From positions 1-64,000 of the forward strand of contig CAJNOJ010000376.1 of assembly GCA_905250025.1 (NCBI GenBank): a DNA stretch of 64,000 nt. Reading direction: 5' to 3'. The notes under the pieces are model-generated. The model made no database searches, was not told the DNA's origin, and worked only from the letters and a program-made list of their open reading frames with translations. Origin of the DNA: Adineta ricciae. Its lineage: Eukaryota; Rotifera; Eurotatoria; Adinetida; Adinetidae. The stretch's first letter is position 1. The number at the start of each line of letters is the position of its first letter. Positions 6,603 through 58,962 of the stretch are shown here, in pieces. A program made the translations under genes and the position numbers.

Positions 6603-7146
6603 GCGTTCTTGTGAGTGAGTAATCCTTTTCCATGAGGATCTTCATCTGTCTGATCCTGTCCAGTACGATAAGACGCCAGCATAGTAGAGTATTTCGCCAG
6701 TTCTTCCTGTGAAAGTCATGTTTACACCATCAGACATCTGATCCTCGACGACCTAGAAGGTTTACACATAGATGAAATTGTTTTGAGTTCTATTCATGCA
6801 TGTCATATATGATATACACAAGAAACTGGAAAGTTACAAATGTTTCGAACTGCTTCAATTCAGTTCTCACGCTTACGTTTACTCAAGTAGCGCCTAGAAG
6901 CATTTATAACTTTCCGATTTCTTGTGTATATTATATATATGACATGCATGAATAGAACTCAAAACAATTTCATCTATGTGTAAACCTTCTAGGTCGCCGA
7001 GGATCAGATGTCTGATGGTGTAAATATGACTTTCACAGGAAGAACTGGCCTAATACTCTACTATGCTGGCATCTTATCGTACTGGGCAGGATCAGACAGA
7101 TGAAGATCCTCATGGAAAAGGATTACGCACTCACCAAGGGCGCTAG
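6603..7146. mobile_element. Foldback element with ~245-bp inverted arms
   Basis: The left arm 6603-6848 is repeated in inverse at about 6891-7146 with roughly 93% identity by eye, separated by about 40-50 bp. Matching landmarks include AATCCTTTTCCATGAGGATC near 6621 and its complement near 7105-7125. Such a structure would form a very stable cruciform or hairpin. No coding content; terminal target duplication not resolved. Confidence 0.85.
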
Positions 7147-7466: not shown

Positions 7467-8247
7467 ACCCACACCCTCAAATAGCATAGAAGGATAGAGC
7501 TTTTTTCGCTATCATCCTATACAGAAGAAAAATTATTTAAGCCTGCTGAACGATGTTAAACTATCACTGCTAGAGCTTTTGTCATGCCCTAAGTACTTCA
7601 TGCTGTGATTTTCGTCGTAAAATGAAATGTCTTTTTCCAATCAATAGGATCTGTGTCTGAACCTTTGAAATAAGGAATAGCATTAAAGGATGTCTTCTTC
7701 AAAAGAAACCTAACAATTTGACATTTTCTTCTATTTCTCTATCGTTTTCGACGTAGAATGAATGGCAATTTGCTACCGTGTGAACGTGTTTCAAAGAGAC
7801 ACTTAGCATTAATTGTTTCCACATATTTTGTAACATAATTTCTACGAAAAATATATCAGAGAGAAATAATGAGATTTTTTATATAAAAAGTTTTTGTAAT
7901 TTAAAGAAAAAAATAAAAAAGCTTAGTAAAGTATACTTCCATTGTATTAAAAACAATTCTTGAGCATAATTCATAGAAAAGATATATTGAGAAGTTCGAA
8001 TTATTTTTAAACGGAACGATCCTGACAATATTTATTAATGAGAAAACATCAACAAAATAGAAAAGCAATTTATTCATCGACACACAATGTAAATACTTCA
8101 TATAAAAACATGAAAATACGCACATAGAGAGAGAGAAAAAATTATGTCAAAATTCTAAGGCTTTTGTAATATTTAATTACGTTGTTTTATCGTAAACAAC
8201 ATTTATGGTACTTGCTGCGATAGGATTCGGCAATCTTTGATGTACCT
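7467..8247. other. Intergenic; left edge of duplicated block at ~8000
   Basis: No gene recognised in 7480-8247. From about 8000 onward the sequence is homologous to 17579 onward. Confidence 0.5.
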
Positions 8248-9330
8248 TTATTGATACGAATTTTTGTATAACTGTAATTTAATGAGTACGACATTGAGTC
8301 CTTTAAGAAGACAAGATTTGAGTTCACTACGAAATTTTCCACTTGCCAATGTGTAAATGTAAAATCCAGTAATAAGACTAGTATCGTAAAGATATCTCGT
8401 TATGATACTAGTTAATCGATAAATCATCAATTCTAATGGTGTAAAGTCATGTCCAAATATAATTATAGTTAATGTATAGTATGTGGTAGTAGCTACATAT
8501 GGAATTGAAATTAAAATAGTAATGAATATTTGAAATAGTAACATTCGTATCATATGACGATCATTAGAACGCAGACGTTCATTTTTTACATTGTTACCAT
8601 ATGGAACAACACGATTACGAGTACTTCGGACATTTCGTATGATCAACATACCGAAAATACACATCAAAACAATTGGTAAAATACACGCCATAAAAGGTTC
8701 AAAAACGTTATAGAATATATAATATTCATAGGACGATATACCACAAATATAATCATCAAAGTAAGGAACTTGTTCGAAAAATATGGGTATATGAGCATGA
8801 AGGAGAAGAAAAAATATATAAATACCTACGATTGCTCGTTTTCCTGTTGATAAACTACTTAACCGACGATATTCTACTTTTGATGAACTCGATAGAAATC
8901 TATCGATACTAGCAAGAACTGGAAACCATAAGCGAAGAGAGAATAAGATATAGCGAATAATACTGATTAATTTACACAAGAGTTGAGTATTTTGGGGTAT
9001 ATTCACGTTCCAAACATTGGAAAGATAATCAGTCAATAAAAAAAGATAAATAAACACAAAATTATTAATTGAACCGACTAGAAAATACATTGAACATGGA
9101 TTAATACGCAAACTAGGACGAGTGAAAAGAATAATATTAAAAACATTTCCTATCGTTCCAATAACTATTTGAATTGGTGGAATAATTTGAGCTATCCGAA
9201 CTGCAGCAAAAAAGATGCTCATTGGCAGATCATCCATCAAATTCGATATGGTAAACAATCTTTCTAAAGACGTAGATCTCAAACACTTATATATTGTATC
9301 AAAGAATTGACTTTCAGTTTTATATTCCAA
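8248..9330 (-). CDS. Divergent rhodopsin-type 7TM receptor, copy 1
   Basis: Intronless 360-aa frame with seven hydrophobic segments: TM1 about 55-75 (with GNVFNIILF), TM2 about 83-105, TM3 after LLCKLIS with the conserved Cys, then SIDRF in place of the DRY motif, EL2 Cys in DDYICGIS, TM5 around FMACILPIVLMCIFGMLII, TM6 around MLLFQIFITILIS, and a TM7 lacking a canonical NPxxY (TGFYIYTLASGKF), followed by a short basic tail. Typical of the large lineage-specific peptide-receptor-like families of bdelloids; the ligand cannot be inferred. About 94% identical to the copy at 17850-18908 but 8 residues longer at the C-terminus because that copy has an earlier stop. Plasma membrane. Confidence 0.85.
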   Translation of the reverse strand: MEYKTESQFFDTIYKCLRSTSLERLFTISNLMDDLPMSIFFAAVRIAQIIPPIQIVIGTIGNVFNIILFTRPSLRINPCSMYFLVGSINNFVFIYLFLLTDYLSNVWNVNIPQNTQLLCKLISIIRYILFSLRLWFPVLASIDRFLSSSSKVEYRRLSSLSTGKRAIVGIYIFFLLLHAHIPIFFEQVPYFDDYICGISSYEYYIFYNVFEPFMACILPIVLMCIFGMLIIRNVRSTRNRVVPYGNNVKNERLRSNDRHMIRMLLFQIFITILISIPYVATTTYYTLTIIIFGHDFTPLELMIYRLTSIITRYLYDTSLITGFYIYTLASGKFRSELKSCLLKGLNVVLIKLQLYKNSYQ

Positions 9331-10346
9331 AGTGCCCTTTTATATAAAAAAAAAACCTCTCTGAAAAACCAGTTCGTTGAAAATAATTAAAGCGCACACC
9401 ACTCTTTCATCGAAATTAGCTAACTGTGTATAAGATGTGCGTGTACAAGGATGAGGTTCAAACTACTTCATTCGAAGAAAACAGATAAAGTTATCAATGT
9501 TATCGTCAATAACTATGTCACGTTCGAATCCATTCTTAATAATGCATGACACAAGTAGATTAGATTTTAATTAATGGAAGAATACAAATGCTTGTTGACA
9601 TTTTGTTCAAATTTTCAAATGTACCAACGAGATTCCTGAAAACTATCATAGATTGTTAAGAATTTTACTGAAAATTTGAGTACCCGCTGATAACTCGATT
9701 TGTAGAGCAAAATTAATCTCATAAAATGCTGCCTAGGTCGACCAACCTCATACTCGGATCCGTTGTCGGATTGATGCACCTGGGTAATAGTCACTTTCTT
9801 TTCGTCATTGATTCTGTAGTTTCAAACTAAAATTTAGTATACTACCATGATTTCTAAAGAAATATTTGTTTTATAAAATGTTTACATTTTTCATAAAGTT
9901 TTACATGATATTGAAAACAAGAAAAATAAATAAACATTCAATTAAACGACTCCAATGACATTTAACGATCTACTCAAGAAATATGATTATCAAGCAATTC
10001 TTTATCGTATAAGCCTGATCAAAGACGTTTACAATGAATAGAATATATTTGTTATGAAACACGTTTTACTAGAAACTCTATATACTATGTATCTGCATAT
10101 TCAGCATCAATAAAAATAGTATTCCTCACATAAGAGAGAATTCTTTTCTATCTACAAAACCCGTCCTTGATCATATTCTCATGAACAAACTCTGAAACTT
10201 TTGTTCAAAAGTTTACATAAAATTTCATCATTACCATTCAACTCTTTCTCTCAGCTAGTTTCGTTATTGGTTACACTATGTATGGCTGATCGATACGTAC
10301 GTATGTCAAAGTTTCCCCCAAAGTGAAATAGGTATATGTAAATATT
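9331..10346. other. Intergenic flank inside the duplicated block
   Basis: AT-rich 5' flank of the receptor and 3' flank of the transferase fragment; recognisably shared with 18909-19862. No further gene seen. Confidence 0.5.
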
Positions 10347-10785
10347 CTAAATGAGTTTCTGTAATTTCGTATAAACAATAACATCTCGATTAGTTTTCTT
10401 CACAGTAAACAGATTTCCCTGGATAGACAGTACTTCTTTTTCATAATCATATTCTGAGACATCTGCAATGCCTATCACAGTAGGAAATTCAACTTTTATT
10501 TCAAGAACAAATAAAACTGCGATATGACCTTCTTCTTTTGAATGACCAGGAATAAATGAAAGAGCTAGGTCATTTTTTTTCATTTGTTGTTGCAAATGCT
10601 TTAAAAACAAGAACAACACGCGGTTGATGTTTAAGTGCTGTTTCATATAAAGATAATTCATCAGAACTGATAGTCGCACCGCAATATGCAAGTCTTTTAT
10701 AAGCACGTTTCTTTAGTTCATTATCACGAATATGAAATTCAATTACAAATCGGCCACATAAATGTGAACTCGTAATCAGGCTCAT
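10347..10785 (-). pseudogene. Arginine mono-ADP-ribosyltransferase-like fragment, copy 1
   Basis: C-terminal half of an ART-type fold, an NAD-dependent enzyme class that modifies arginine side chains. The family landmarks are degraded: the Tyr-Arg-Gly site reads YCG, the Ser-Thr-Ser strand reads FATTN, while the distal glutamate region EYDYEKEVLSI is kept. The frame breaks at an 8-A run (forward strand T run about 10573-10580); the sister copy breaks at the same run, which there has 6. The N-terminal half of the usual ~250-aa domain is absent and repetitive DNA starts just upstream (10826). Changed catalytic residues make this a dead copy rather than a sequencing artefact alone. Confidence 0.7.
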
Positions 10786-10825
10786 GAGGTGAATCTGCCA
10801 ATTGATGATCGAGTGATTTATATAA

Positions 10826-11058
10826 ATTATTCCCTCGGCTGAAAGGAGGGTTATATGGAAGAAGTAGTTTGTATGTATGTATATCTGTTTGTGTCAGAGC
10901 TAAAGGCCAAAAAAACATTTTTTCGCAAATGTCCAAAACCTCGTCCAACATTGTTTGGGAGAAATGTAGGGGCAGGGACGTGACAGAGATGAAGAAAGCA
11001 TTCCATCCGTGGCTGAGAGTAGGGCTACATAGAAAAAGTTGATTACGAAAAAATAAAA
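10826..11058. repeat. E1-terminus-like repeat with direct CTGAAAGGAGGG copies
   Basis: Starts CCCTCGGCTGAAAGGAGGG then TATATGGAAGAAGT. A related motif recurs near 11018 (GGCTGAGAGTAGGG then CTACATAGAAAAAG) in the same orientation about 190 bp on. The partner at 20347-20735 shows the same organisation with an extra copy next to an N gap, so the arrangement looks like a short array of 190-210 bp units. A GTATGTAT microsatellite lies at 10871-10882. Confidence 0.55.
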
Positions 11059-11346
11059 ACACACTTGGTTGACTGTCGCATATCAAAGGCCGGTAATTCA
11101 AAAATACAATCGTTCACAAGTTACATACTGGGAAGCAATCTTAAATGCTGAGCTTATCGATATGTCGAAAGTTGTTAAAAGCCTCCAAGCTTTTTAATAA
11201 GTAGATAATCTAGTCAGTTATCAAAGTATCAACAATCCGACACGTTCGAATGCGAAATATATACAGAGTCTCATTTGATCTTACCGAAAAAAATATCTTT
11301 CTTTTAGAAAAAGGAGGACATGTTTAAAAGTGCAAATCCATAATAG

Positions 11347-11679
11347 TCATTTATAGCGAACTTCTGCTTTCTGTGAAGAGTAATTGTCAGTCAGGAATAT
11401 ATAATAATTAAAAGCAACACAAGTAGTCCTTTGACTCTTTTNTTTCGATTGTCCGATGTCCAATGCAGACAAGTAAGGTGACCGCCAAATGGTGACATTG
11501 GTCTGAGTAGATTTCGTTGCATAGTAAAATCCATTCGTAGGATGTTTATAAACCCATGGATCAGCACCATCCTGAGAGAGAAAGGGATAGAATGTGTTCA
11601 CTGCAGCGTAGTTACTGATCGATTTCGAAAACCTCAAAGCTAAAGTCATCAAGTAGAAAAACAATAGTGCACGTGTCAT
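11347..11679 (-). pseudogene. GH43-type glycoside hydrolase, N-terminal fragment cut at a duplication breakpoint
   Basis: Starts at ATG 11679 with a hydrophobic signal peptide (TRALLFFYLMTLALRF). Then come GADPWVYKHPTNGFYYATKS and NVTIWRSPYLSALD, the first blade of the five-bladed propeller of family 43 (arabinofuranosidase/xylosidase type) including the catalytic-base Asp in ADPW. Homology ends at 11443; the remaining 31 codons of the frame lie in DNA that belongs to the duplicated block and have no GH43 character. An ambiguous base N at 11442 marks the junction. The family normally needs about 300 aa, so this is non-functional unless the assembly is wrong here. GH43 is mostly bacterial/fungal; transfer is inferred. 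Confidence 0.75.
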
Positions 11680-17553: not shown

Positions 17554-17849
17554 ATAATTATTTTCTATACTAACTTTCATTATTTTTAAACGAAACGATT
17601 TTGACAATATTTATTAACGATAAAACATCAATAAAAAAGAGAAACAATTTATTCACCGACAGACAATGTAAATACTTTATATAAAAACATGAAAATACGC
17701 TCATAGAGAGAGAAAAAATGATGTCAAAATTCTAGGACTTTTGTCATATTTAATTGCGTTGTTTTATCGTAAACGACATTTATGGTACGTGCTGCGATAG
17801 GATTCGGCAATCTTTGATGTACCCCTTATTGATACGAATCTTTGTATAA

Positions 17850-18908
17850 CTATAATTTAATGAGTACGACATTGAGTCCTTTAAGAAGACAAGATTTGAG
17901 TTCACTACGAAATTTTCCACTTGCCAATGTGTAAATGTAAAATCCAGTAATAAGGCTAGTATCGTAAAGATATCTCGTTATGATACTAGTTAATCGATAA
18001 ATCATCAATTCTAATAATGTAAATTCATGTCCAAATATAATTATAGTTAATGTATAGTATGTGGTAGTAGCTACATATGGAATTGAAATTAAAATAGTAA
18101 TGAGTATTTGAAATAGTAACATTCGTATCATATGACGATCATTAGAACGCAGACGTTCCTTTCTTACATTGTTACCATATGGAACAACACGATTACGAGT
18201 ACTTCGGACATTTCGTATGATCAACATACCGAAAATACACATCAAAACAATTGGTAAAATGCACGCCATAAAAGGTTCAAAAACGTTATAGAATATATGA
18301 TATTCATAGGACGATATACTACAAATATAATCATCAAAATAAGGAGCTTGTTCGAAAAATATGGGTATATGAGCATGAAGCAGAAAAAAAAATACATAAA
18401 TACTTACGATTACTCGTTTTCCTATTGATAAACTACTTAACCGACGATATTCTACTTTTGATGAACTCGATAGAAATCTATCGATACTAGCAAGAACAGG
18501 AAACCATAAGCGAAGAGAGAATAAGATATAGCGAATAAAACTGATTAATTTACACAAGAGTTGAGTATTTTGGGGTATATTCACGTTCCAAACATTGGAA
18601 AGATAATCAGTCAATAAAAAAAGATAAATAAAAACAAAATTATTAATTGAACCGACTAGAAAATACATTGAACATGGATTAATACGCAAACTAGGACGAG
18701 TGAAAAGAATAATATTAAAAGCATTTCCTATCGTTCCAATAACTATTTGAATTGGTGGAATAATTTGAGTTATCCGAACTGCAGCAAAAAAGATGCTCAA
18801 TGCCAGATCATCCATCGAATTCGATATGGTAAGCAATCTTTCTGAAGACGTAGATCTCAAACACTTATATATTGTATCAAAGATTTGACTTTCAGTTTTA
18901 TATTCCAA
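17850..18908 (-). CDS. Divergent rhodopsin-type 7TM receptor, copy 2
   Basis: 352-aa intronless frame, about 22 substitutions from copy 1 counted by eye (about 94% identity). The key positions are conserved (LLCKLIS, SIDRF, DDYICSIS). An earlier TAA removes the last 8 residues of copy 1 while the downstream nucleotides still match. Changes are spread over loops and TM segments with no frameshift, so both copies look under coding constraint. Function as for copy 1: orphan plasma-membrane receptor. Confidence 0.85.
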   Translation of the reverse strand: MEYKTESQIFDTIYKCLRSTSSERLLTISNSMDDLALSIFFAAVRITQIIPPIQIVIGTIGNAFNIILFTRPSLRINPCSMYFLVGSINNFVFIYLFLLTDYLSNVWNVNIPQNTQLLCKLISFIRYILFSLRLWFPVLASIDRFLSSSSKVEYRRLSSLSIGKRVIVSIYVFFFLLHAHIPIFFEQAPYFDDYICSISSYEYHIFYNVFEPFMACILPIVLMCIFGMLIIRNVRSTRNRVVPYGNNVRKERLRSNDRHMIRMLLFQILITILISIPYVATTTYYTLTIIIFGHEFTLLELMIYRLTSIITRYLYDTSLITGFYIYTLASGKFRSELKSCLLKGLNVVLIKL

Positions 18909-19862
18909 AGTGTTCTTCTATATAAAAAAAACTTCTTATCTGAAAAACCAATTTCTTGAAAATAATTAAATAAAGGAAATTCTTTAATTAAAGTTGACAC
19001 TACTTTTTCATCGAAATTAGCTAACTTTGTGGAAGATGTGCGTGTACAAGCATGAGGTTCAAACTACTCCATTCGAGGAAAACAGATAAAGTTATCAGTA
19101 TTATCGTCAATAACAATGTCACGTTCGAATCCATTCTTAATAATGCATGACACAAGTAGATTATATTTTAATTAATACTAGAATATAAATGCTTGATGAG
19201 ATTTTCTTCAAATTTTCAAATGCATCAACGAGATTCCTAAAAACTAACATAGATTGTTAAAAATTTTACTGAAAATTTGAGTCCCCGTTGATAACTCGAT
19301 TTGTAGAGCAAAATTAATCTCATAAAACGCTGCCCCGGTCGACCAATCCCATACTCGGATTCGTTGTCGGATTGGTGCACCTGGGCAATAGTCACTTTCT
19401 TGTCCTCATTGATTATGTAGTTTCAAACTAAAACTTAGTACACTACCATGATTTCTAAAGAAATATTTTTTTAATAAAATGTACACACTTTCCATAAAGT
19501 TTGATACGCTATTGAAAACAAGAAAAATAAATAAACATTCAATTTAGAAACTCCAATGACAAGTATATTTGTTATCAAACAAGACTTACTATAAACTCTA
19601 TATACTATGTATATGCTTATTCAGCATCAATAAAAATAGTATTCCTCACATGAGAGAGAATTCTTTTCTATCTACAAAACCCGTCCTTAATCATATTCTC
19701 ATGAGCAAACTCTGAAACTTTTGTTCGAAAGTTTACATAAAGATTCATCATTATCGTTCAGTTCTTTCTCTCAGTTAGTTTCGTTGTTGGTTACACTATG
19801 CATAGCTGTTCGATAAGTATGTCGAAGTTTTCCCCAGAGTTAAACAGTTATATGCAAATATT
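18909..19862. other. Intergenic flank inside duplicated block copy 2
   Basis: Homologous to 9331-10346, minus about 85 bp. No separate gene recognised. Confidence 0.5.
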
Positions 19863-20299
19863 TTAAATGAATATCTGTAATTTCATATGAACAATAACAT
19901 CTCGATTAATTTTCTTCACAACAAATAGATTTCCCAGGATAGACAGTACTTCTTTTTCATAATCATATTCTGAGACATCTACAATGCCTACCACAGTCAG
20001 AGATTCAACTTTTATTTCAATAATAAATAAAACTGCACTATGACCTTCTTCTTTGGAATGACCAGAAATAAATGAAAGAGCAACGTCGTTTTTTCACTTG
20101 TTGATGTAAATGCTTTAAAAACACGAACACCATGCGGTTGATGTTTAAGTGCTGTTTCATATAAAGATAATTCATCAGAACTGATGGTCGCACCGCGATA
20201 TGAAAGTCTTTTATAAGCACGTTTCTTTAATTCATTACCACGAATATGAAATTCAATTATAAATCGGTCACATAAATGTGAACTCGTAATCAGGTTCAT
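19863..20299 (-). pseudogene. Arginine mono-ADP-ribosyltransferase-like fragment, copy 2
   Basis: Better preserved than copy 1: it keeps the YRG site (RLSYRGATIS), the Ser-Thr-Ser strand (KAFTSTSEK) and the distal ExE region (EYDYEKEVLSI), that is, the R-S-E triad expected of arginine-specific ARTs. The frame still breaks at a 6-A run (T run about 20090-20095) between the STS strand and the glutamates, and the N-terminal half of the domain is absent. Either a pseudogene or a gene with a homopolymer sequencing error; truncation favours the former. Confidence 0.7.
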
Positions 20300-20346
20300 G
20301 AGGTGAATCTGGCAATTAACGATCGGGTGATTTATATAAATTGTTT

Positions 20347-20740
20347 CCTCTACTGAAAGGGGAGGGGGGGGGGGGGGGGGATGATAGGGGAAAAAGAGTT
20401 TGTTTGAAGTTATGTAGGNNNNNNNNNNNNNNNNNNNNNNNNNNNNNNNNNNNNNNNNNNNNNNNNNNNNNNNNNNNNNNNNNNNNNNNNNNNNNNNNNN
20501 NNNNNNNNNNNNNNNNNNCTAGGGGGGGGAGGGATTATATGGGAAAAATAGTTTGTATGTATGTATGTATGTATGTATGTTTGTGTCAGAGTCAAAGGTC
20601 AAAAAAACATTTTTTCGAAAATGTCCAAAATCTCGTACAATATCGTTTGGGAGGAGTAAAGGGGCAGGGACGTCACAGAGATGAATAAAACATTTCATCC
20701 GCGACTGAGAGGAGGACTATATAGAAAAAGTTGATTACGA
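20347..20740. repeat. E1-terminus-like array with poly-G run and assembly gap
   Basis: CCTCTACTGAAAGGGGAGG runs into about 15 consecutive G (about 20366-20380), then 100 N (20419-20518), then GGGGGGGAGGGATTATATGGG, a GTATGTAT microsatellite, and a last GACTGAGAGGAGG near 20704. The gap and G run make length here unreliable; the frames spanning it are meaningless. Confidence 0.7.
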
Positions 20741-21602
20741 AAAAATAAAAACACACTTGGTTGACTGTCGCATATCAAAGGCCGGTAATTCAAAAATACA
20801 ATCGTTCACAAGTTACATACTGGGGAGCAATCTTAAATGCTGAGCTTCGATATATCGAAAGTTGTTAAAAGCCTCCAAGCTTTTTAATAAGTATATAACC
20901 TCAGACGTTCGGACGCTGATAATCTCATCTATGAGATGCTGATGGAATGTTAATCAATTTTCTATACTTTTTGGTAGCAACGCGGGCGATTATATGATAG
21001 ATAGGGACGGCTTTGAAGCTGCGCCTGGTAATCTAGTCAGTTACAAAAGTATAAACAATCCGACACGTTTGGGTTCGAAAGCTATACAGAGTATCATTTT
21101 ATCTTACTGAGTTCATCTTTCTTTTAGAAAAAGCATGACATGCTTAAAGATGCAAATCCATAATAGTAATTTGTAGCAAACTTCTACTTCCTGTGAACAG
21201 TGACCGTCAGTCAGGAATATCGAGTAATTAAAAGGATCACAAGTAGCCTTTGGTTCTTTTGACGCCTGTGAGGTGAATGAAGATCAGTCTCTGGAGATCC
21301 TTTCAATGATTATAAGTTAGAACTCGAAAACCTTCAACATTATACCTTATTTAAATTTTAATTGAATTTTCATTTGTCGCTAGTGTTGTTTCTTTTCGAA
21401 CTAATCAAATTAGCATTATATTTTTCCATTGGCCTTTACTATGATTGAAAGCAACAGAACGTAATTCATGTATATATTTTACGTGAGTTACAATGGAACA
21501 ATTTTATAAAGTTTTAAAACCTTTGGCAAATATTTATTCGATTGTTATCGATATGCTTTTTCACAATTTTGAATTTTTATCTTTGTTTAAAACCAGTTAA
21601 TG

Positions 21603-23030: not shown

Positions 23031-26000
23031 ATGCACAACATTTATGTTTTCTTTCTTATTTTCAATTATGAAACATCAGGTTTGCTATTTTAAAACGAAT
23101 TTCTCTTTTTCCTACATAGGAGAAAATATTTTCATTTACAGAAGCTAATTGCTTTTTGTAATAGATAATTAAAAGCAGGAGTTTATCAAGATCTCAACCT
23201 GCTCTGCAGAATCACATAAGATTATGAAATATTCAGATGATTATATTGAGTTCTTAGAAAAACTAAAGTTAACACGATTATTTCGTGTCTGGAACAAAAC
23301 AGATCGACTTCGTCTGTGGTATATCCCTAGTCCTTGAATGAGTTTCTGTCTAGAAAAAATATGTTTAGAAAGACAAAATTGCCATTTAACATTCTTTTAT
23401 ACACATAATTTAGCTGTTTCACTCAATCAACCAAATTTATCTTCAGTACCAACTTGGGAACGTAATGGAATAACATTTGTTAACGAATCGATTGTTGGTG
23501 TGAAGAACACAGATGTTTTTATTGATAGAAAAAACTCAATTTATATCCTTAGTGACGACAAGAAACAAATTATAGTATGGCATAACAATAGTATCAATCC
23601 AACACAAACGATTTCAGCCGACTTCTTATCTTTTTCGTCTATATTCGTAACACCGAATGGCGATATATATATTAGTTCAGAATTTCCCTCATTTCATATA
23701 ACGAGATGGATTTCGAAAACAAAAATTTTTACCAAAGTCATGAATACATCACACCATTGTTATGATATCTTTATCGATATCAACGATAGTTTATATTGCT
23801 CAATGAGCATGAACAATCAGGTATCAAAAGTAAACTTGAAAAGTTCTTCAATGAACACGATAGTTGTTGCTGGAACAAATAGTCACGGATCTAATCCGAA
23901 TGAGCTTCATCATCCTTGCGGAATCTTTGTTGATGTTAACTTTGATTTGTTTGTAGCAGATACTGAGAATAATCGAATTCAATTATTTCCATTTGGAGAA
24001 ACAAATGCCATCACTGTTGCTGGTTGGCAATCGGCACGTCCAACTATTAACCTCAATGGGCCCGTCGGAGTTACATTGGATGCGAAGAAATATTTATTTA
24101 TTGTAGAATTACAAGGTCAACGAATTATTGCAGAAGGACCATATGGTTTTCGATGTATAATTGGATGTTACGGGGACGTTGCTCGATCTAGGGAATCATT
24201 TCCATCTTCAATGAGTTTTGATATCCTTGGAAATATATTTGTTGTTGATACCGAAAACAGGCGCATCATGAAATTTCAACTGACGAACATCTCTTCTGGT
24301 GAGTAGAACAAAAATAATAACAGTTAAATAGAGAAAAATTCACCAGTAAATGAAATGTAAAATAAGTCCTTGTCAAGACATATCATAGTTTGATAATATT
24401 CATAAATCATTGTTGAAAAAAGTAAGGAAAAATTGATATCGATTTATTTGTGTCTCATAACAATATTCAAGAAGAAATCAATACAAAGCTAGCACCAAGA
24501 ATTTAGGCAAACTAACATCTGAATGAGACGTTGTCGGAATTAAAGAATTCGTTTTGATACTTTCACAGATATTCGCTAGGATGTAACATCTTGTGCGATC
24601 TCAGACAACGTACTAATCATGAGATGGAACATATTTAAGTTCTTAATGCTAGCTTTGCATCGACAACATATCCTAACATGCATATCTAAGATAGAATGAC
24701 GTATACTATGTACCAATTCTAATCCACTCGTTTTCCTACATTTCCTAATGGGAAACATTTTTCTATTATTGCTACTAAAAAAGCCTCAGTAAAGTGCACA
24801 TTGAGCCACTTTTGCATAATTTAAATAATACAGAGTAAGGTCCAAACGGCATAGCGAAAAAATAACGAATCTGCATTTGAAATGCAAATATTTTTACTTG
24901 AATGGTAAATAATAGAAATTTGAACAGACTGATAATATTTTTCTATGTTCGATAACTCTAATACTCTCTACATTTCTAATACTTCTATAGGTCATACGGC
25001 TACAATAATCGTTGCAGTGCCTGCACCCTGTGACCCCGTAGCGGCTAACCTGTATAGCTGAAATAGCGGCTTGTGGCCCGTGGGGGGAGAGGGAGGTTCA
25101 AAGATCCTGGATGTAGAACTTACACTCACTATTTTTCTTCGAAAAATAATGTGAGTTCCACAAAATATACGTTTCTTCTTTTAGATCACATTTCAAGCCT
25201 TAGGCCCCTGATTAAGGTTACATCTATTGCGAATATATGCACGTTATAACGATAAAGTTCAAGAGTTCAGGGTGTATTGTATCACAGTGAGTATTCCACT
25301 TGGATGAAGTTTCGTCCAAGCAGGCTGTTCTAACTTCTGGTATATTTCGTCAACCATCTTTCACTCTGCCACTGGGCCCAGGAAACTACCATAGAAACTA
25401 GATAAGGAGTATAAGTTAGTACGACTGAAAATTCATCCAGTACCCTCGAGATGTGCCTCTCGAAAGTTCCTGTCATCATTTGGTGGTAGTGTAAAAATTG
25501 AGAGCAAATTTTTTCATCCATTTCTCTATATAAAATGAGAATTATCAAAGTAGGTCTTTTACTCCATTTTAAAAATCCTCGAATCATCTTTTTGTCAATT
25601 GAAAAATAAAAATAAATGTTCTAAACGAACTTTCATCTCGATAATGATCATCAATCAGTTAAATAAAAAATAATTCTGTTTTAACATACGTGTTTTAATT
25701 ATTACAACTGTTACGGTACATTGAAAAACTCTTTTCTTATTATATGTTCTAGCTGTTTCACTCAATCTGCCGGAATTTTGTCATACACCAACTTGGGATC
25801 ACAATGGAGCACCGTTTGCTCAGAAATCGATTAGTCCTAACTATCCCTATGATGTTTTTATCGATACAAATAATTCAATTTATGTCGTTCTTACCTCCAA
25901 GGTAATTTTAGTATGGCATAACAATAGTATCAATCCAACACAAACGATTTCAGCCGACTTCTTATCTTTTTCGTCTATATTCGTAACACCGAATGGCGAT

Positions 26001-29000
26001 ATATATATTAGTTCAGAATTTCCCTCATTTCATATAACGAGATGGATTTCGAAAACAAAAATTTTTACCAAAGTCATGAATACATCACACCATTGTTATG
26101 ATATCTTTATCGATATCAACGATAGTTTATATTGCTCAATGAGCATGAACAATCAGGTATCAAAAGTAAACTTGAAAAGTTCTTCAATGAACACGATAGT
26201 TGTTGCTGGAACAAATAGTCACGGATCTAATCCGAATGAGCTTCATCATCCTTGCGGAATCTTTGTTGATGTTAACTTTGATTTGTTTGTAGCAGATACT
26301 GAGAATAATCGAATTCAATTATTTCCATTTGGAGAAACAAATGCCATCACTGTTGCTGGTTGGCAATCGGCACGTCCAACTATTAACCTCAATGGGCCTG
26401 TCGGAGTTACATTGGATGCGAAGAAATATTTATTTATCGTAGAATTAGAAGGTCAACAAATTATTGCAGAAGGACCATATGGTTTTCGATGTATAACTGG
26501 ATGTTACGGGGATGGATATCAATCTATTGGAATCTCTTTTCCATCTTCCATAAGCTTTGATAGTTTTGGAAATATATTTATTGCTGATTTCATAAATCAA
26601 CGCATTCGAAAATTTCAATTAGAAAACCTTTGTGGTAAGTTATATTAGAAGTTCAACCATGAAATACTTAACTTGGTAATGAAAACCAGTATTCTGAAAG
26701 TATGCATAAGAGAAAGAGATAAAGAATTATAATCGAAGTGTTCAAAATTCATTATATTGATGAGAATTCGTTCACCCAGGTCGATCATTCCGGCGGCTGG
26801 ATCCGTTGAAATCTGAGTCGGTTCCAGTACAGCTCTTCTCGTTTCCAGCCGGAATTGCACAGGAAGTATCCGATCAGTTTCTGACCGTTTCCAGCTCGAA
26901 GTTTGCAGGAAATGGTCGAAAAACGAACCTAACCGGCCGGAACCGTCCGTATCATAATAACCTGGGTCCTTGTCAGGACTTTATCGAACTTTTTTCAGTT
27001 TAATTAAATGTAAAGAAAAGTTGAGTGATGAATAAACTGAAAAAATCAAAATTATATGTTGATTTCATTCATTGTATTGAAAAGGAAAAATACTAGTTGA
27101 GATTATATTTTATTAGTAGTGAAAACACGAACAAGATAAATATGAACCTTTATGTTACTGATTTTTCTCTTCTGCGTTTCACAACAAGGATATCAAAAGA
27201 GAAATATTCTACATTTTATTTTTAAGTGCAAAGATACGAATTCAAGAACAAATAATTGATCGGAGCTTTACGACAAGAATGCTCGTGACGGTGCAATAGA
27301 TGTTATAAATCGTTTCGTTTTTTTTGAAAAGTCGTGAATTTTAGACATTATTTTGATAGTATAGAACATATTCTCAAGCTCGAGGTATATTTCGGATTTT
27401 CAACGAATAGAAAAGTATTCGTCTAATTTTGTCATCAGATATGTCTATGTAAGAATTATTTCGTCTTATCTATACAGGTTTTCCATTAAATATACCAAGA
27501 TTTTGTTCAAAACCAGTTTGGAATCGAAATGGAATCACTTTTACTGATCAGTCAATAATTGGTTTAAATCCTTCAAGTATTTTTATAGATCAAAAAAATT
27601 CAATTTATTCTCTCAATCAAGAGAAAAAACAAATCTTAATTTGGAATGAATCTAATATTGAATCAACTAGAATTAATCTTTCTGATTTCTCTTATTCATA
27701 TTCTCTATTTGTTGCTTTAAATGGTGATATTTACATTGATGATGGAATCAATCATCGAATAAAGAAATGGACCTTGAATACAAAAAATTTTACCAATGAA
27801 ATGGATGTCTTTTCATCTTGTTTTGGATTATTTATCGATAGATATAATCATCTATACTGCTCAATGCCTGAACATCATCAAGTGATTAAACGAAATTTCA
27901 GTGAAGGTATTCCAGCAATTATTATCGTAGCTGGTACAGGTAATCAAGGATCAACTTCAACTATGTTAACTAGTCCACATGGAATTTATGTTGATACAGA
28001 GTTCAACACATTTGTAGCAGATTGTGGAAATAATCGAATACAAAGATTTGAATTGGAAGTAAAAGTTGGTATAACAGAAGTAGGAGATTCATCAACAGCA
28101 CAACATCAATATTCACTTTCATGTCCAACTGGTATTGCATTAGATTCTCAACGGTTTTTATTTATTGTTGATTCAAATAATCATCGTATTCTTCGATCAG
28201 GGACAAATGGTGTTCATTGTGTTATTGGGTGTAATGGGATTAGTATCAAATCTACTAAACTATACTCTCCATCTAATCTTGCTTTTGATAATTTTGGAAA
28301 TATGTTTGTTGTTGATTCCGGAAATAATCGAATACAAAAATTTCAATATTCAAAAAATTCTTGTGGTAAGTTTTTATGAGAATAATAGAATAGATGATAT
28401 CATCCGTAATTAAATTGAAGTACTAGTGCGCTATTGTAGTAATCGGTATTTAAATAAATTGTTTAAATTTTAAACTATAGAATAGTGAATAAACGATATT
28501 TCACAATTCAGTTTCTATACACAATTAATCTAAAGAAATATTTTTAATTTAATAGATATGTCATCAATTATTCAATGGACGCATTCATTAACATTAACAA
28601 AAGATAGTCAATTATATTCTCAAGATTGTAATGAAGAAAATCATTATTATGAATCATTTCAAATTGAGGTACCTGAAAATCGTTATTATTCAATATGGAG
28701 TAGCGCAGATTTTGATACATCTGCTTTTATCTATGAAAAATCATTTGATTCACTTCATCCAAATGAAAATCTTCTTACGAAAGATGATGATGAAGCATTT
28801 GATAATCAATTCAAATTAGAACTCCCTCTTTATAATAATATTATATACGTATTGGTTGTCACAACACGTTATCCAATGAAAACTGGTAACATTACAATTC
28901 ATATGTCGTCTTTAAAGAATGTTAATGTGACACGTCTTTGTAAGTATGATTTCATCAATAGATAATGTCTGAAGAGAAATTAAAGATAAAGTTGACTATT

Positions 29001-29678
29001 CTACAGAGATTTATAACACCATTTGTTATTTTTATTTTTAATTATCAAAAAAATCCTCTTTTTAATTAAATAGCTACATTAGTCAATATTCAATCGAATT
29101 ATTCATCTCAATTGACGACAAATAATCCAAAATATTGTCAAGATTATAAAAATTTGAGTCATTATTATCAAGCACTCCAAATCTATGTGAAGAAAACAGG
29201 TTTATATATTATTTGGAGTAAAAGTGAAATAGATACTTATGGTTTCATTTATAAAGATAATTTTGATCCATTAAAACCATTGCACAATTTAATAGTTTAC
29301 CATAATGGAGCATGTAATCAGAATCAATTGAAACTTTTTATTAATCTTCAAGAAAATACGAAATATATATTCGTTATAACAACAAACTATCCAAATACAA
29401 CAGGAAATTATACTATTTTTATATCTGGTGAAAATCATGTTACTATTAGTCATTTTTTCGATTCTAAACAACATAATTATTCAGCTGAAGTTCAATGTCA
29501 ATTTTATTCAACAACAGCTGGTTTATCGTCTGATAGTGGAAATCAATTTTATTCAACAACAACAACTGGTTTATCATCTGATAGTGAAAATCAATTTTAT
29601 TCAATTCAAATAAGTTCTGTTCTAATAATTCTCATGTTTATTGAAGGATTAATCAATAATCTTTTTATCTTATTTTGA
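23031..29678 (+). CDS. NHL-repeat extracellular/membrane-anchored protein, six exons (~1230 aa)
   Basis: Exons 23031-23079, 23414-24298, 25753-26634, 27478-28365, 28556-28939 and 29074-29678 join in one frame; every internal junction is phase 1, so exons 2-5 are symmetric modules. Exon 1 encodes a signal peptide (MHNIYVFFLIFNYETS). Exons 2, 3 and 4 each encode an NHL beta-propeller-like unit opening with PTWxxNGxxF and closing with NIFVVDTENRRIMKF-type blades (VADTENNRIQLFPF, GIALDSQRFLFIVDS). Exons 5 and 6 encode two related beta domains (YYSIWSSADFDTSAFIYEKS; LYIIWSKSEIDTYGFIYKD), then a QFYSTTTTGLSSDS tandem repeat and a hydrophobic C-terminal anchor. NHL propellers bind proteins or ligands; partner unknown. 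Exons 2 and 3 share a near-identical internal tract (see findings). Exon 1 is the least certain part. Confidence 0.8.
24299..25752. other. Intron 2 of the NHL gene, 1454 bp
   Basis: Much longer than the other introns here. Contains a GC-richer patch at about 25005-25110 (TAGCGGCTAACC / TAGCGGCTTGTGG repeat words and a CCCGTGGGGGGAGAGGG run), probably a short inserted element; the rest is featureless. A 60-aa minus frame at 24576-24758 is not supported as a gene. Confidence 0.5.
26774..26967. mobile_element. 194-bp GGAA-rich MITE-like element in NHL intron 3
   Basis: Ends ACCCAGGT and ACCTGGGT are 8-bp inverted repeats. The whole body aligns, inverted, with 34425-34637 at high identity (TCAACGGATCC and AACTTCGAGCTGGAAACG landmarks). 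The body is built of GGAAnnG words every 10-20 bp. No coding capacity. Confidence 0.75.
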
Positions 29679-48444: not shown

Positions 48445-49410
48445 CTAGTGTTGCCGGCGCTTGGTGCTGCTGCGTGTGGTGATGGTGCTTGTATTCTTTG
48501 TGCTGCTGCTACTGCTGCTGCTGCTGACACCAACAGTTGAATCTACTTTCAAAGTTACAGTTCCTATCAATCCACCACTGATACCTTTTGCTTGATTCAC
48601 ATATGCTAATGTGACTAAGGAATCAACACCATCTTGTTGTGTATAAACACGATCAACACTATTTAGCGTACGTGTTACTGTGTTTGAACTATAAGGTGAA
48701 ATCGCTTGAACTAATGTTGTATAACTGTCATTGAAAAAGATTTGGCCTGTATGTGATGTATGTCCACCCCAATAATAGACTGAGCCACTAGTAGTTTCCA
48801 CACCACCAGAACGAACTTTAGCATGAATATGTGTTGCACGTCCACCATAATATCCAGGATAAACTGTATAAAATGTTGCTTGTCCATTCGTGTTTGTTAA
48901 TTGGACACCTCGCAAATATGTTGTTGTACTGACAACACTTGTTTCAAAATGTGAATAAACACCAATAGAATTACAATGCCATAGATCAACAGCAGCATTA
49001 ACAATTGCAGAACAATTATTTGTATCGACTACAGTTACTATCAATGTAAACGGTATGCCAGCTTGTGATTCTCTAAAATCAACAAAGAGATTACATATAA
49101 TCAACTCTGACAATAACAAAACACTATTCCTATACGTAGAAGTTTTCTTTGATATTTACGTTATATTTTGTCGTACTAATGATCCATTGTAATAGTACGG
49201 TCCTTCTTCGATTTCTGGTGTTAATGAACATCCTGAAACGACAGCTCGTTTATTCCGTAGTTGTCCTTGTACATTACCATCTAGAATATCAGTTATATTG
49301 AAAGTAAGTTATTATTCTTTCTAAACGAGATTTAGTCAGTACTTACTTGAAAAAGTTGTGAGTACCAAAAGTAAAAAGATAGCTGGTGTAGTAAATTTAA
49401 TAGATAGCAT
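48445..49410 (-). CDS. Secreted intradiol ring-cleavage dioxygenase, copy B (complete, 270 aa)
   Basis: Exons 49410-49347 (signal peptide MLSIKFTTPAIFLLLVLT), 49280-49160 and 49072-48445, with GT-AG introns of 66 and 87 bp and the same phases as copy A. The core has TPEIEEGPYYYNGSLVRQNI, AAVDLWHCNSIGVYSHF, YPGYYGGRATHIHAKV and the FFNDSY region, then a Ser-rich tail encoded by a GCT/GCC repeat (48500-48530) and a basic end (TKRRQH). The Tyr-Tyr-His-His iron set appears intact. Predicted secreted enzyme acting on dihydroxylated aromatics; actual substrate unknown. The family is common in fungi and bacteria; a horizontally acquired, since-introned gene is my inference. Confidence 0.92.
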
Positions 49411-50096
49411 GTTTTTGTTTTTTCTTCTTCTTTTGAATTCCTTCTGTTTCTTGTAAAATTTAATAAGACACGATTATTATGCTTTGAAATTTACCCACCT
49501 ATATATATACCTGAGAGTGTATGACAATCTAGCATGTACTTTTTTTATCGCTAACAGTATGCTTCTATCGTTTGTACAGCAATGAAAATAATTTTCTTCG
49601 TCATACATGTTTATTTTTGTTTCTTCCTGCGAATATTGCAAGGAAAAAGCAGAATATAATGAATCATGAAAGCCGTAGTACTCATATGTACTTTTTGAAG
49701 TGATGAACGGCGTATTTTTCTATAGACGTTAATGTACTATTTACTTAGTGTAATCATATTTTGAATAATCTGCAAAAGTACATCAATGATTACTCCATGA
49801 ATCATCATTGTGGTAGGCGACTCTGTCGAAGGTATAGATACAACTGAATATGTCATTAATCGTCATATAGGCTGCCGTCCAGAATGAAATTTTAATCATC
49901 AGAGACTTCTGTAAATAATGTAACTTTAGAATTACCGAAAAATGAATTGGCGCGTTTTCCATGTGTTATTTCCCTTCTCCCTATTCATTTTTAAATGTTG
50001 TACGGATAGGTTTAGCCTAGATGGTGTTAGAACATCACCCAATAAAGGAGACGTTGAACTTTTGTAGTATTAGAGAGATTATTAGTATTTCTCCGA
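48587..50096. repeat. Direct segmental duplication, copy 2 (partner 1-1510)
   Basis: Includes most of dioxygenase copy B and about 690 bp of its upstream region. Only a few per cent divergence, plus a 4-bp insertion in intron 2 (about 49135-49138). Homology ends at TTTCTCCGAAGT. Confidence 0.9.
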
Positions 50097-50528
50097 AGTA
50101 TTTATTGTGAAGAATACGGCTTTTTTTCGTCGTAGATTTACATACATGAAAATATAAAATTTTTATAACACATCTAAAGAAAATTTTCCACAAAATGACA
50201 GAAGAGTTATCTGATTAAGTATTAATGAATTTATGTTGCTCGCTATAGTGGCTATATTCTTGAGAAATTGTATATTTTCGTTAAACTTTGACTATTATCT
50301 AGTATATCATTAGTTCATTAGAACAGATGTGCGCATCTTTCATGAATCATTCAGAGCAGTAGGAGATTTCGGTATAGCAAAAATGAATGAAGGTTCTTCG
50401 ATATGAAAATAATATCAGCGTGTCGATATATTCATTACACATTTAAAAGCGAATATCAAGAAACAAATATAAAAACATATTATGATCAAAAATAAAGTTA
50501 TACATTAAAAACTACAGATAGGCATTAC
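50097..50528. other. Intergenic, nothing recognised
   Basis: Unique AT-rich sequence past the end of the dioxygenase duplication. Confidence 0.4.
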
Positions 50529-56799: not shown

Positions 56800-58188
56800 C
56801 GCATGTAATAAGCAGCAATAATATGTGGAAAATGCCGTTTGTTTTCGGTTTATATAAGTTTGGCATGACTCAATGTGTGAAATTTGGCTTAACTGTTAAA
56901 AGAAAAGGCTTATCTATTACCAACTAAAAGCAGAAAGAAAAAAAACTGATAAAAATAAATTTCTTTTTAAAAGAAAAGAAAATACATTCAAATATACACT
57001 TAAGATTTCTTTGGTCGTTCAGTCATCTTTCGTTAATATCTGTGCGCTGTTAGATGAGGGCGTGGATGATGTTAAAAAGTTATGATTGGAATTGATGGAG
57101 CGTATTAAGTTTTATTTGGAGCCAGTGTGATTAGTGTATCTGGTAGCCGAAAGCCAATGTGACGCGCAGGAAAAATAGCACATCTTGTAGAACATATTTT
57201 TCTCTATCGATCTGCCTGTATAACGAAATAGACTATTGATTTTATTTTTTGGAAGTGATAAGTCCTCATGCAGTATGCCATGAGGATTCCGACTATCCCA
57301 TGGTGAAATATCGATGGTTTTTCGATAGACAGTCGACTTTTCGTTTTCAGCAAAATTCGAAAAACGAAAATTGGTGCTCTTATTACTTGACCTATATCTT
57401 CTCGAAAGAAAACCCAAAACGAAAAAATTTTACAGCAAAATGCTCAGCGTAAAAAGCTCTACACACCCTGCAAGTCTCATGAAAGTCGGAGAAGGTCGTC
57501 GAATCCGCTCGTGGTTTCTCATGGGCGTGCCCTGAAGTTAGATGACGAAAAGGAGACCTGTTAAAGGCGATCTACTCCAGAAGAATCGATTAAAATCAGA
57601 TTTATCTTTTCTTTACATGGGTGTTCGATGCTTCATCATTTGATCGCATTTATTAACTTTGAATGCAAATCCATTGATGAATATGATTTGATTTGGTTCC
57701 AGGAACATAGAAATTATACAAGATATCCATGAAACTTTTGCCACTAGAACAAGTATTCGTAAGCATTTATACTTGTGTACAAATAGAAACAGACGAGAGA
57801 ATTCATTTGTAACACACCAGAATAGTGCATGTATCCATTTAAATATAAAATGAGCTTAGAATGCGGGTAAAATCGGGTATTTCAGGCTCGTCACATAAGA
57901 ATAAATGAAGAATAGCATCCATCATTGTTCTGATGAAGGTTTGTTATGATAAAAGTGAAAAGCATTGAAATTATATCGCATAAATTTTTATCTGCTTTTC
58001 TGATGATGCAAGAATAGCTACTTCCTTCGTTGTTATGACAAATAATATTTACACTTGTAAATGTTCTCATTCTGCGAAATGTTTCCAGCCAGTAAAATGA
58101 GTCATATGCGTCATGTTGGTTTTTTCTCGTCCACAGAAACTCTCTATAAAATGTGGCACCCTGCTCTACTTCACACCATTCGATACAA
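56800..58188. other. Intergenic, nothing recognised
   Basis: Separates the minus-strand F-box ORF from the plus-strand oxygenase. Contains no supported gene; frames at 57112-57452 and 58061-58267 lack family features. Confidence 0.45.
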
Positions 58189-58962
58189 ATGGAAAACGAT
58201 TCGTGTTACATTGTCGACTGTTCCAATGAGAATAGCTCACTTTTTGCTGAATTACGAGACGAATTAATCAAGAATGGGTATGTGAAAGTGAAATGTGAAA
58301 ATCTGCCGGACGGTGACTGCGACAAGGCTTGTCTGAATACAATTGCGGCCGTGGGTGGTGTATGTTGTCCATATGACGATGATTCCGAGTCATTCATCTG
58401 GCCCGTGAAAGTACTCGAACTCGATTCGCCTGAATCGCATTTGCAAGCTTCGCAACTTGACCGAGAACTAGTCCTTCACACAGACTGTTCTTATGAGCAC
58501 GATGCACCCCATTTCGTTGCTCTCTATGTCGTTCAATGTGATCGCAGCGAACGTGGCGGCAAATTTCAGATGGTACGCACACAAGAAATTATCGATAAAT
58601 TATCGCCGGAAACTAAACGTCTGTTACGTGATGAAACATACAAGATTAATGTTCCACCAGATTTTCGTAAAGGCAACACCGAATATATACGTGGTTCGAT
58701 TTTATTGAACGGCGAGAAACACATTCGATATCGCCGTGATATTATCGATAAAAGTCGTTTGAAAGAAGAATCAGCAGAGAAACAAGCAGCAATAGCTGAA
58801 CTCAACTCAATTATTCTCTCTGAAAACCAGCTGCACGTGTTTCAGCCCAAGTTAGAAAATAACATGATGGTTCTCTTCGATAATCGTCGTTTTCTACATG
58901 GCCGAACGAAAATTCAAGATCTTGAACGATATCTGCTGCGTGTTCGTTTTAATTTAAGTTAA
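58189..58962 (+). CDS. TauD/TfdA (clavaminate-synthase-like) Fe(II)/2-oxoglutarate dioxygenase
   Basis: ATG at 58189 (MENDSCYIVD) gives 257 aa in one exon. An in-frame GTG upstream is not used in eukaryotes. The facial triad is visible: H97 and D99 in LVLHTDCSYEHD, and H237 in RRFLHGRTKIQD, with the 2-oxoglutarate-binding arginine in YLLRVRF. Other landmarks: YVKVKCENLPDGDC near the N-terminus, PHFVALYVVQCDRSERGGKF, and HIRYRRDIID. The enzyme would couple 2-oxoglutarate decarboxylation to hydroxylation of a small substrate; substrate unknown. The closest style is bacterial clavaminate-synthase-like proteins, hence possible transfer. Followed 157 bp later by the DUF3431-like gene in the same direction. 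Confidence 0.8.
   Translation: MENDSCYIVDCSNENSSLFAELRDELIKNGYVKVKCENLPDGDCDKACLNTIAAVGGVCCPYDDDSESFIWPVKVLELDSPESHLQASQLDRELVLHTDCSYEHDAPHFVALYVVQCDRSERGGKFQMVRTQEIIDKLSPETKRLLRDETYKINVPPDFRKGNTEYIRGSILLNGEKHIRYRRDIIDKSRLKEESAEKQAAIAELNSIILSENQLHVFQPKLENNMMVLFDNRRFLHGRTKIQDLERYLLRVRFNLS

Follow-up and report, generated by a model that had tools for sequence, protein, structure and literature searches.

Probable recurrent gene conversion between two NHL-propeller exons of a multigene family in the bdelloid rotifer Adineta ricciae

We have analysed a window of 64,000 nucleotides from Adineta ricciae (positions 1 to 64,000 of contig CAJNOJ010000376.1, assembly GCA_905250025.1), and observed that two exons of one gene, each encoding a predicted NHL-type beta-propeller, carry a near-identical central tract. 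Gene conversion is a well supported explanation, on the nucleotide evidence, for this combination of an identical island, introns that do not match and exon ends that are specific to their position. As judged from comparisons with paralogous genes, conversion is recurrent, and has occurred separately in at least three genes, that of the window included. Below, we show that the segment exchanged overlaps a predicted propeller face that shows signs of diversifying selection.

Structure of the gene

The features of the gene are collected in Table 1. The six proposed exons join into a single open frame of 1230 codons that ends with a stop, and we infer that they form one transcript. Exons 2, 3 and 4, which we refer to as modules A, B and C, all have AG/GT borders and lengths divisible by 3, and all are phase 1-1, as the sequence-only reading had described. 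The product is probably secreted or anchored in a membrane, and would contain three NHL beta-propellers, each of these phase 1-1 exons encoding a complete one. The ATG of exon 1, the peptide that follows and the next GT are conserved in 4 of 4 aligned loci, and the junction of exon 1 with exon 2 is in frame; the putative signal peptide is read from the sequence itself. The last exon, which gave no match in a Pfam scan, encodes a hydrophobic C-terminal stretch that may serve as a membrane anchor. The Pfam NHL model scored 33.1, 35.2 and 62.2 bits in modules A, B and C, respectively (cut-off 20), and the Teneurin TEN_NHL model scored 34.7 bits in module C (cut-off 27.1) and 25.1 bits in module B, with no match in module A at E 0.001. 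No NACHT or HET match was obtained in exons 2, 3, 4 and the last exon, to which the scan was confined.

Table 1. Features of the three-propeller gene (positions in the window)
Feature	Position	Strand	Remarks
Probable exon 1	23031..23079	+	ATG, then hydrophobic signal-peptide-like stretch MHNIYVFFLIFNYETS; exits in phase 1
Exon 2, module A, whole six-bladed NHL propeller	23414..24298	+	885 bp; AG/GT borders; phase 1-1
Putative conversion tract, core, module A copy	23573..24062	+	490/490 identical to 25909-26398; residues 54-217, end of blade 1 and blades 2-4
Putative conversion tract, right shoulder, module A copy	24063..24176	+	5 mismatches/114; to residue 255 (blade 5); older or partly overwritten
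Intron between modules A and B	24299..25752	+	unduplicated; no intron self-match for exon pair
Exon 3, module B, second NHL propeller	25753..26634	+	882 bp; AG/GT borders; phase 1-1
Putative conversion tract, core, module B copy	25909..26398	+	identical to 23573-24062
Putative conversion tract, right shoulder, module B copy	26399..26512	+	5 mismatches/114
Exon 4, module C, third NHL propeller	27478..28365	+	888 bp; AG/GT borders; phase 1-1; outside conversion
Probable exon 5	28556..28939	+	384 bp; phase 1-1; AG/GT borders; open frame
Probable last exon	29074..29678	+	AG before; in-frame TGA at end

The tract shared by exons 2 and 3

At an offset of 2336, the two cores agree at every position, and the two shoulders differ at 24063, 24102, 24112, 24122 and 24161 (numbered on the module A copy), so that core and shoulder together are 99.2% identical (599/604). 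Identity is 67.5% in the upstream part of the exons (first 163 alignment columns), 73.3% in the downstream part (columns 761-880) and 60% over the final 38 columns. Given an overall identity of 0.89 for the A/B pair, the expected count of identical runs this long is ~1e-23. Module C is 58-60% identical to A and B and has no such island. The exact 100% core is read from one assembly, and could mask a few differences lost in assembly.

The sequence-only reading had placed the tract at about 23576-24180 and 25912-26515, which is correct to within about 4 bp, and had described strongly different exon ends, as is borne out by flanks that go down to about 67-73%. Its description of a sharp-edged island holds for the left edge, which is sharp, and not for the right edge, which is graded through a shoulder of 96% identity. 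It had also claimed that the intron between the exons is unduplicated, and had named equal identity of the introns as evidence against conversion. When the window was compared with itself by BLAST (E-value limit 1e-10, minimum length 80 bp), the exon pair appeared as one match, 23512-24249 against 25851-26588, and no match was found for the introns of the pair.

The value of dS between A and B is 0 over ~46 synonymous sites (codons 55-135) and 0.018 over ~56 synonymous sites (codons 136-218), as compared with 0.13-0.56 between loci in the same codon regions. The A/B event is therefore recent relative to the divergence of the loci, and the earlier claim of a recent intragenic conversion is supported.

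A genome search, in which 40 of 77 candidates were scored, revealed no donor outside the gene: the best other long match among those scored was 81%, and one 40-bp piece elsewhere was 85% identical to the tract. Since nothing long exceeded 81% outside exons 2 and 3 in these candidates, the donor most simply lies within the gene. The sequences give no donor direction, the core being the same in A and B and the sister genes having been converted as well. The sole hint among the 5 shoulder differences is at 24161, where the module B base is shared with module B of C518 (by eye) and looks like a retained B state.

Probable conversion in paralogous genes

The same pair of exons is present in two paralogues, on contigs C518 and C899; within each of these genes the centre is homogenised, while the ends group by position. 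Over the centre (columns 164-600), A/B identity was 100% in the window gene (W), 94.7% in C518, and 89.4% and 94.7% in the two pieces of C899; between genes it was 76-81%. Over the last 38 columns, in contrast, A modules are 79-92% identical to the A modules of other genes, against 60% for A and B within W. The centre gave a tree in which W_A joined W_B (100/100), 518_A joined 518_B (97.1/96) and 899_A joined 899_B (99.9/100). The flank tree grouped the three B modules (97.5/76); the right flank alone did not resolve the trees. In the AU test, the flank tree failed when judged on the centre alignment (p=4e-59), as did the centre tree on that of the flanks (p=0.001).

The borders are less sharp in C518, where the 5' flanks of A and B are also rather alike (84%), and its A and B centres differ at 23 of 434 compared columns, in several patches. 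Module B of C899 is broken in the tract region, with one N and ~200 bp present on both sides, and C1001 is represented without a module B. In both paralogues A and B are separate types with type-specific ends and introns, and the exon pair is therefore older than the identical tract.

We surveyed 18 genes with at least two modules, C389 and C459 being counted as two gene copies each, in a sample that is biased in that the loci were chosen by similarity to the tract. Two short module pieces (C763 and C89) were dropped before this count, and modules C336_33300 and C89_346447 were retained with their one in-frame stop each read as X. Measured as within-gene identity above the best match in other genes of the set, strong islands were observed in W (0.28), C518 (0.25) and C899 (0.24). 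C389 shows an island (+0.21 and +0.15 for its two copies) only if both copies are counted as one locus; weaker islands are present in C625 (+0.15) and C73 (+0.11), and in the remaining genes the islands are either slight, at about +0.11 or below, or absent. Two protein queries of the genome gave 1357 and 1327 candidates at first look, and scores were obtained for 133 and 132 of these, respectively; when the lists were merged by eye, with one partial C899 match left out, they contained 197 propeller-exon places.

Predicted fold and signs of selection on one face

For module A, the only module modelled, AlphaFold2 predicted a complete six-bladed NHL propeller (pLDDT 89.5, pTM 0.90). Foldseek matched the model to Pizza6, PknD, Thin and Brat at probability 1.00, and the closest solved folds are NHL-type propellers. 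On the predicted fold, the tract falls on blades 2-4 of the six and its shoulder on blade 5, which fits the earlier proposal that copying can swap propeller surfaces.

When the A modules from 4 loci are compared, 59 positions carry 3-4 different residues. Forty-one of these lie in the BC+DA loops (82 residues) and only 2 in the AB+CD loops (58 residues), the loop classes having been taken from DSSP and named after the pattern of variation was already seen; none of 294 label rotations (0/294) matched this contrast. On the model, variation between genes is concentrated on one propeller face, that of the BC+DA loops. Brat-type NHL domains usually bind their ligands on the BC/DA face, and in the present family the BC+DA face would be the surface for ligand recognition.

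IQ-TREE codon runs gave likelihoods without omega, and a small GY94 maximum-likelihood fit of our own was used for omega. With A modules from 4 loci and B modules from 3, which are not independent of each other, and with one tree assumed although conversion breaks that assumption, the BC+DA top loops gave omega values of 2.23 in module A (p=0.0018) and 6.06 in module B (p=3.8e-6), and the other blade residues 0.51 and 0.50, respectively. In the same genes, module C gave 0.44 for the top loops by GY94 (1.05 by counting methods, with a wide interval of 0.49-2.43) and 0.42 between loci. Constraint on the AB+CD loops is seen in A (0.44) and not in B (0.96, p=0.94). By IQ-TREE, the A and B top loops depart from an omega of 1 (2dlnL 12.5 and 25.4, statistics that do not give direction); when the distant C604 and C73 modules were added, in a set run with IQ-TREE only, the top loops did not differ from an omega of 1 (2dlnL 0.03). 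In the gene pair of C459, these loops evolve under purifying selection (0.17), and diversification is therefore not general in the family. In statistical terms, and for few sequences, the BC+DA loops of A and B show an excess of amino-acid change between genes that is not seen in C. The swapped face thus bears signs of diversifying selection in A and B. Neither this nor the separate homogenisation in paralogues formed part of the sequence-only reading.

Alternative explanations

If the tract were an artefact, the two centres would truly differ and an assembler or gap filler would have given both exons one and the same sequence. The contig is indeed scaffolded, with 100 N at 20419-20518, and module B of C899 is visibly misjoined in the tract region. 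However, the shoulder 24063-24176 holds 5 copy-specific differences, and C518 is homogenised likewise with its 23 differences in patches, which a gap filler would not produce; also, no orphan second centre was seen, nothing long above 81% occurring elsewhere in the genome among the 40 of 77 candidates scored. We regard an artefact as improbable. Two near-identical stretches that adjoin within one gene would also result from a simple recent tandem duplication of an exon. This we consider very unlikely, and rejected, since neither the introns nor the exon ends are duplicated and the sister genes are built with the same two exons; the distinct A and B types of C518 and C899, each with its own ends and introns, show that the pair predates the tract. 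Purifying or convergent selection that kept the centres alike without conversion would be consistent with the conservation of some blade motifs across 30 aligned modules, but the A/B centres are alike at synonymous sites too, at the dS values given above, and this explanation, for which we see almost no chance, was rejected on that ground.

A further alternative accepts the homogenisation as real and disputes only its functional part: conversion would be neutral, and the variable face relaxed rather than selected. In favour of this, conversion needs no more than similar sequences that lie close together, hypervariability is not seen in the C459 modules, the top-loop signal is lost once C604 and C73 are added, and the AB+CD loops of module B are unconstrained too (omega 0.96). 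Yet relaxation would be expected to bring omega near to 1, not above it, and to show no preference for one face, whereas top-loop omega exceeds 1 in both modules (p=0.0018 for A, p=4e-6 for B), the remaining blade residues are, as a group, under constraint, and omega is not raised in module C. We think neutrality rather unlikely, while granting it appreciable weight.

Discussion

The sequences indicate that there is repeated exchange of central segments between modules A and B, through intragenic (ectopic) gene conversion. In the window gene, the last event would have taken in 490 bp or more (blades 2-4), and an older event would have reached over blade 5; the C518 and C899 paralogues would each have been converted separately in this region. 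Point mutation and selection would diversify the BC/DA face between genes, and conversion would carry a new face into the two propellers of one gene, keeping a matched, bivalent pair. Alternatively, conversion may reshuffle blades into new combinations. Taken as a whole, this explanation, in which a three-propeller protein with recurrent A/B conversion carries a selected, putative recognition face, appears to us quite probable.

The predicted six-bladed NHL fold resembles those of Thin, TRIM71/LIN-41, Brat, the PknD sensor domain and the Pizza6 designs. To our knowledge, these propellers are single conserved domains. The window gene, in contrast, would encode three tandem propellers, each in an exon of its own, and two of these are hypervariable on one face.

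In PMC1805685 and PMC2873952, the WD-repeat genes of the Podospora anserina HNWD family (het-d, het-e and het-r) are described as undergoing concerted evolution within and between family members, with positively selected residues on the protein-interaction face of the propeller. The genes W, C518 and C899 resemble HNWD in having a beta-propeller domain with concerted evolution of units within the gene. Signs of a comparable selection on one face were observed in A (4 loci) and B (3 loci), and were not seen when C604 and C73 were added or in the C459 pair. In HNWD, the units exchanged are single WD40 repeats of a fungal NACHT-type (STAND) protein (PMC1805685, PMC2873952), whereas in the window gene a tract of three to four blades would be exchanged between whole NHL propeller exons ~2.3 kb apart, across an intron; its product is apparently secreted, and within-gene exchange dominates in the genes compared. 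The window gene is not a member of HNWD, its repeats being NHL and not WD40, with neither NACHT nor HET in exons 2, 3, 4 and the last exon. For Adineta vaga, PMC3846280 names NHL as one of the multigene families that are expanded, and states that gene conversion reaches high levels; the portions of that paper and of PMC5916493 considered here do not describe exon-to-exon conversion within a gene or one-faced selection for bdelloid rotifers. A search of the genome for arrays of TGTGGG, the bdelloid telomere repeat, gave 28 overlapping matches on 6 contigs, at least one of them (on C164) distant from any contig end; the reversed control pattern, which is this repeat read in a different phase, gave a similar number (30), so that the arrays carry no weight as evidence for a bdelloid genome.

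Intragenic conversion is ordinary. What is unusual here is its recurrence in the same blade block of several paralogues, and its overlap with signs of positive selection on one face, seen in precisely the pair of exons between which the exchange takes place. These observations suggest a rapidly diversifying family of recognition proteins. More tentatively, and as a reading that we hold to be less likely than not, it may represent a large animal repertoire of secreted NHL-propeller recognition proteins, in which diversifying selection on one face is coupled to within-gene conversion of blade blocks between twin exons, both arms keeping the same fast-changing face; this would be an animal counterpart of fungal HNWD, with another fold family and another unit of exchange. 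If the proposed explanation is true, this genome, in which the NHL-propeller family is very large, would contain a candidate diversified recognition family, and modules A and B, set against module C of the same gene, would provide a clean test of whether conversion spreads or shuffles recognition faces.

Results

Exon structure of the NHL gene

The window comprises the first 64 kb of the 82-kb contig C376, in an assembly of 130.5 Mb and 1033 contigs. Positions 23031-29678 of its + strand probably constitute one gene of six exons. Exon 1 is short, has a signal-peptide-like start and is conserved across four loci; three large exons, modules A, B and C, follow, and to the 3' side of module C are two more, the last of which encodes a hydrophobic C-terminus. 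When spliced in silico, the six proposed exons read through as a single open frame, 1230 codons long and closed by a stop.

Large exons of the gene; all Pfam matches are above cut-off
Feature	Position	Strand	Length	Boundaries	Phase	Pfam match
Module A	23414-24298	+	885 bp	AG/GT	1-1	NHL
Module B	25753-26634	+	882 bp	AG/GT	1-1	NHL
Module C	27478-28365	+	888 bp	AG/GT	1-1	NHL

Modules A and B share an identical tract

We observed that 23573-24062 in module A and 25909-26398 in module B (the core) are identical at 490/490 bases. With the overall A/B identity of 0.89, identical runs of this length are expected by chance at ~1e-23. The 114 bp directly following the core (the shoulder) contain 5 differences, after which identity falls to ~73% and at last to 60%; upstream of the core it is 67.5%. 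Core and shoulder together agree to within ~4 bp with the tract on which the sequence-only reading had based its proposal of intragenic gene conversion. In a self-BLAST of the window, the A/B match appeared as one hit restricted to the exon pair.

The pattern recurs in related genes

The next best genome matches to the tract (79-81%) were in genes on contigs C518 and C899 and in a lone module on C1001. The C518 and C899 genes have the same build as the window gene, retain the module order A, B, C and carry the same type-specific exon ends; stretches of their introns align with the window introns at ~82-88%, and other intron parts align poorly. The A and B centres were 94.7% identical in C518, and 89.4% (left piece) and 94.7% (right piece) in C899, far above the values for A or B centres taken from different genes (76-81%).

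In a tree of the centres, A and B of the same gene were joined with strong support in all three cases, whereas in the flank tree the B modules clustered (97.5/76); centre and flank data rejected each other's tree in AU tests (p=4e-59 and 0.001). The right flank by itself gave a tree without resolution. In an island test, the within-gene advantage was 0.28 for the window gene, 0.25 for C518 and 0.24 for C899, and no island was found in any pair involving module C of these genes. The comparison took in 18 genes that have at least two modules; weaker islands were seen in C389, C625 and C73, and slight ones or none in the others. These comparisons demonstrate, at the level of sequence, that the A/B central segments have been homogenised within genes repeatedly, with ends and introns spared.

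The homogenised extent differs from gene to gene, covering residues ~54-255 in the window gene, a broad region in C518 (23 differences in 434 alignment columns, patchy, mainly near columns 377-417 and 553-558) and mainly columns 401-550 in C899; the events are therefore most simply regarded as separate. The window gene and module A of C518 are 92-94% identical in columns 501-625 (window 23910-24034, around blade 4) and 74-82% in adjoining 50-column windows, which possibly reflects exchange between genes besides that within them.

Could the near-identity of the A/B centres be purely an artefact of assembly? Contig C376 contains a 100-N gap at 20419-20518, and in C899 module B (4026-5083 of L010) a single N interrupts the exon inside the homogenised centre, with ~200 bp present on both sides of it (214 aligned columns, 1 mismatch), so that regions of this kind do trouble assembly. 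Yet the shoulder differences in the window are copy-specific, the C518 modules differ from each other as described, and no orphan second centre figures in the listed matches of the genome search with the tract. A pure artefact is thus unlikely, although assembly could have erased a few true differences within the 490-bp core.

Variable residues lie mostly on one face of the predicted propeller

AlphaFold2, with 30 modules as input, predicted module A to be a six-bladed propeller closed by its N-terminal strand (pLDDT 89.5, pTM 0.90), and Foldseek matched this model to the NHL propellers Pizza6, PknD, Thin and Brat. With blades assigned by hand from the strand list, the core (residues 54-217) covers the third strand of blade 1, blades 2, 3 and 4 and the first residue of blade 5, and the shoulder spans blade 5. 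Loops were classed from DSSP strands. Across the A modules of four loci, 59 positions showed three or four alternative amino acids; most fell in the BC+DA (top) loops (41/59, in 82 residues), with 2/59 in the AB+CD loops (58 residues), 15/59 in strands and 1/59 in a terminus; the observed loop contrast was reached in 0/294 label rotations. The core, 164 of the 295 residues, held 42 of the 59. BC and DA loops lie on one face of the propeller, which in NHL domains such as Brat is the ligand face.

In a purpose-written GY94 fit, which rests on few sequences, on A and B modules that are non-independent since they convert, and on a single-tree assumption broken by conversion, omega for the top loops was 2.23 in A modules (4 loci, p=0.0018) and 6.06 in B modules (3 loci, p=3.8e-6), against 0.51 (A) and 0.50 (B) for other blade residues. 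AB+CD loops alone were constrained in A (0.44, p=0.035) and unconstrained in B (0.96, p=0.94). In module C of these genes, overall omega was 0.42 and that of the top loops 0.44 (p=0.051 against 1). Counting methods agreed for the A and B top loops, at 1.68 (1.16-2.54) and 3.23 (1.91-5.95), and gave 1.05 for those of module C, with a wide interval (0.49-2.43). For other pairs they gave 1.06 (C389), 1.76 (C336, 0.89-5.59) and 0.17 (C459), the last indicating purifying selection, contrary to a reading of diversification. Likewise counter to that reading, with the C604 and C73 modules added the top loops no longer differed from omega 1.

Two contigs carry NHL genes in two copies: C389 (L014/L015, three and two modules found) and C459 (L019/L020, three and three), with whole-module omega between copies of 0.57 and 1.09, and of 0.18-0.24, respectively.

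Other features of the window

A diverged direct duplication (8000-11441 and 17579-21260, 83-93% identity in pieces), the second copy of which spans the N gap, carries two 7TM receptor-like open frames on the - strand, 8248-9339 and 17850-18917; a Pfam scan covering the first copy matched 7tm_1 in the former. A 1.5-kb direct repeat (1-1511 and 48587-50099, 95.8%) overlaps, in its second copy, a - strand open frame (48445-49155) with a Pfam Dioxygenase_C match. An imperfect palindrome of 531 bp (6608-7138) is 89% self-complementary. Open frames 58150-58962 and 59179-60171 match Pfam TauD and DUF3431, domains frequent in bacteria and fungi, and are possible candidates for horizontal acquisition.

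Discussion

The nearest known analogue is the HNWD family of Podospora anserina, in which WD40 repeats evolve in concert and the residues under positive selection sit on the propeller interaction face (PMC1805685, PMC2873952). The window gene would work alike in logic, but it belongs to the NHL rather than the WD40 family, its propellers are whole exons, it is apparently secreted, and exchange is mostly within the gene. The bdelloid Adineta vaga is described as having an expanded NHL family and high levels of gene conversion (PMC3846280), and gene conversion is discussed for bdelloids generally in PMC5916493. The NHL expansion and gene content of the present genome would fit a bdelloid. In the open-licence literature, we found no description of a within-gene conversion pattern of the A/B type in NHL genes.

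We infer that homogenisation proceeded by ectopic gene conversion, for example when a break in one exon is repaired with the neighbouring exon 2.3 kb away as template, rather than by crossing-over, because the latter would delete or duplicate an exon. New variants of the face would arise by mutation and then be selected. Conversion may mix blocks of blades, or it may copy a selected face to the twin propeller, which would give one protein two matched faces.
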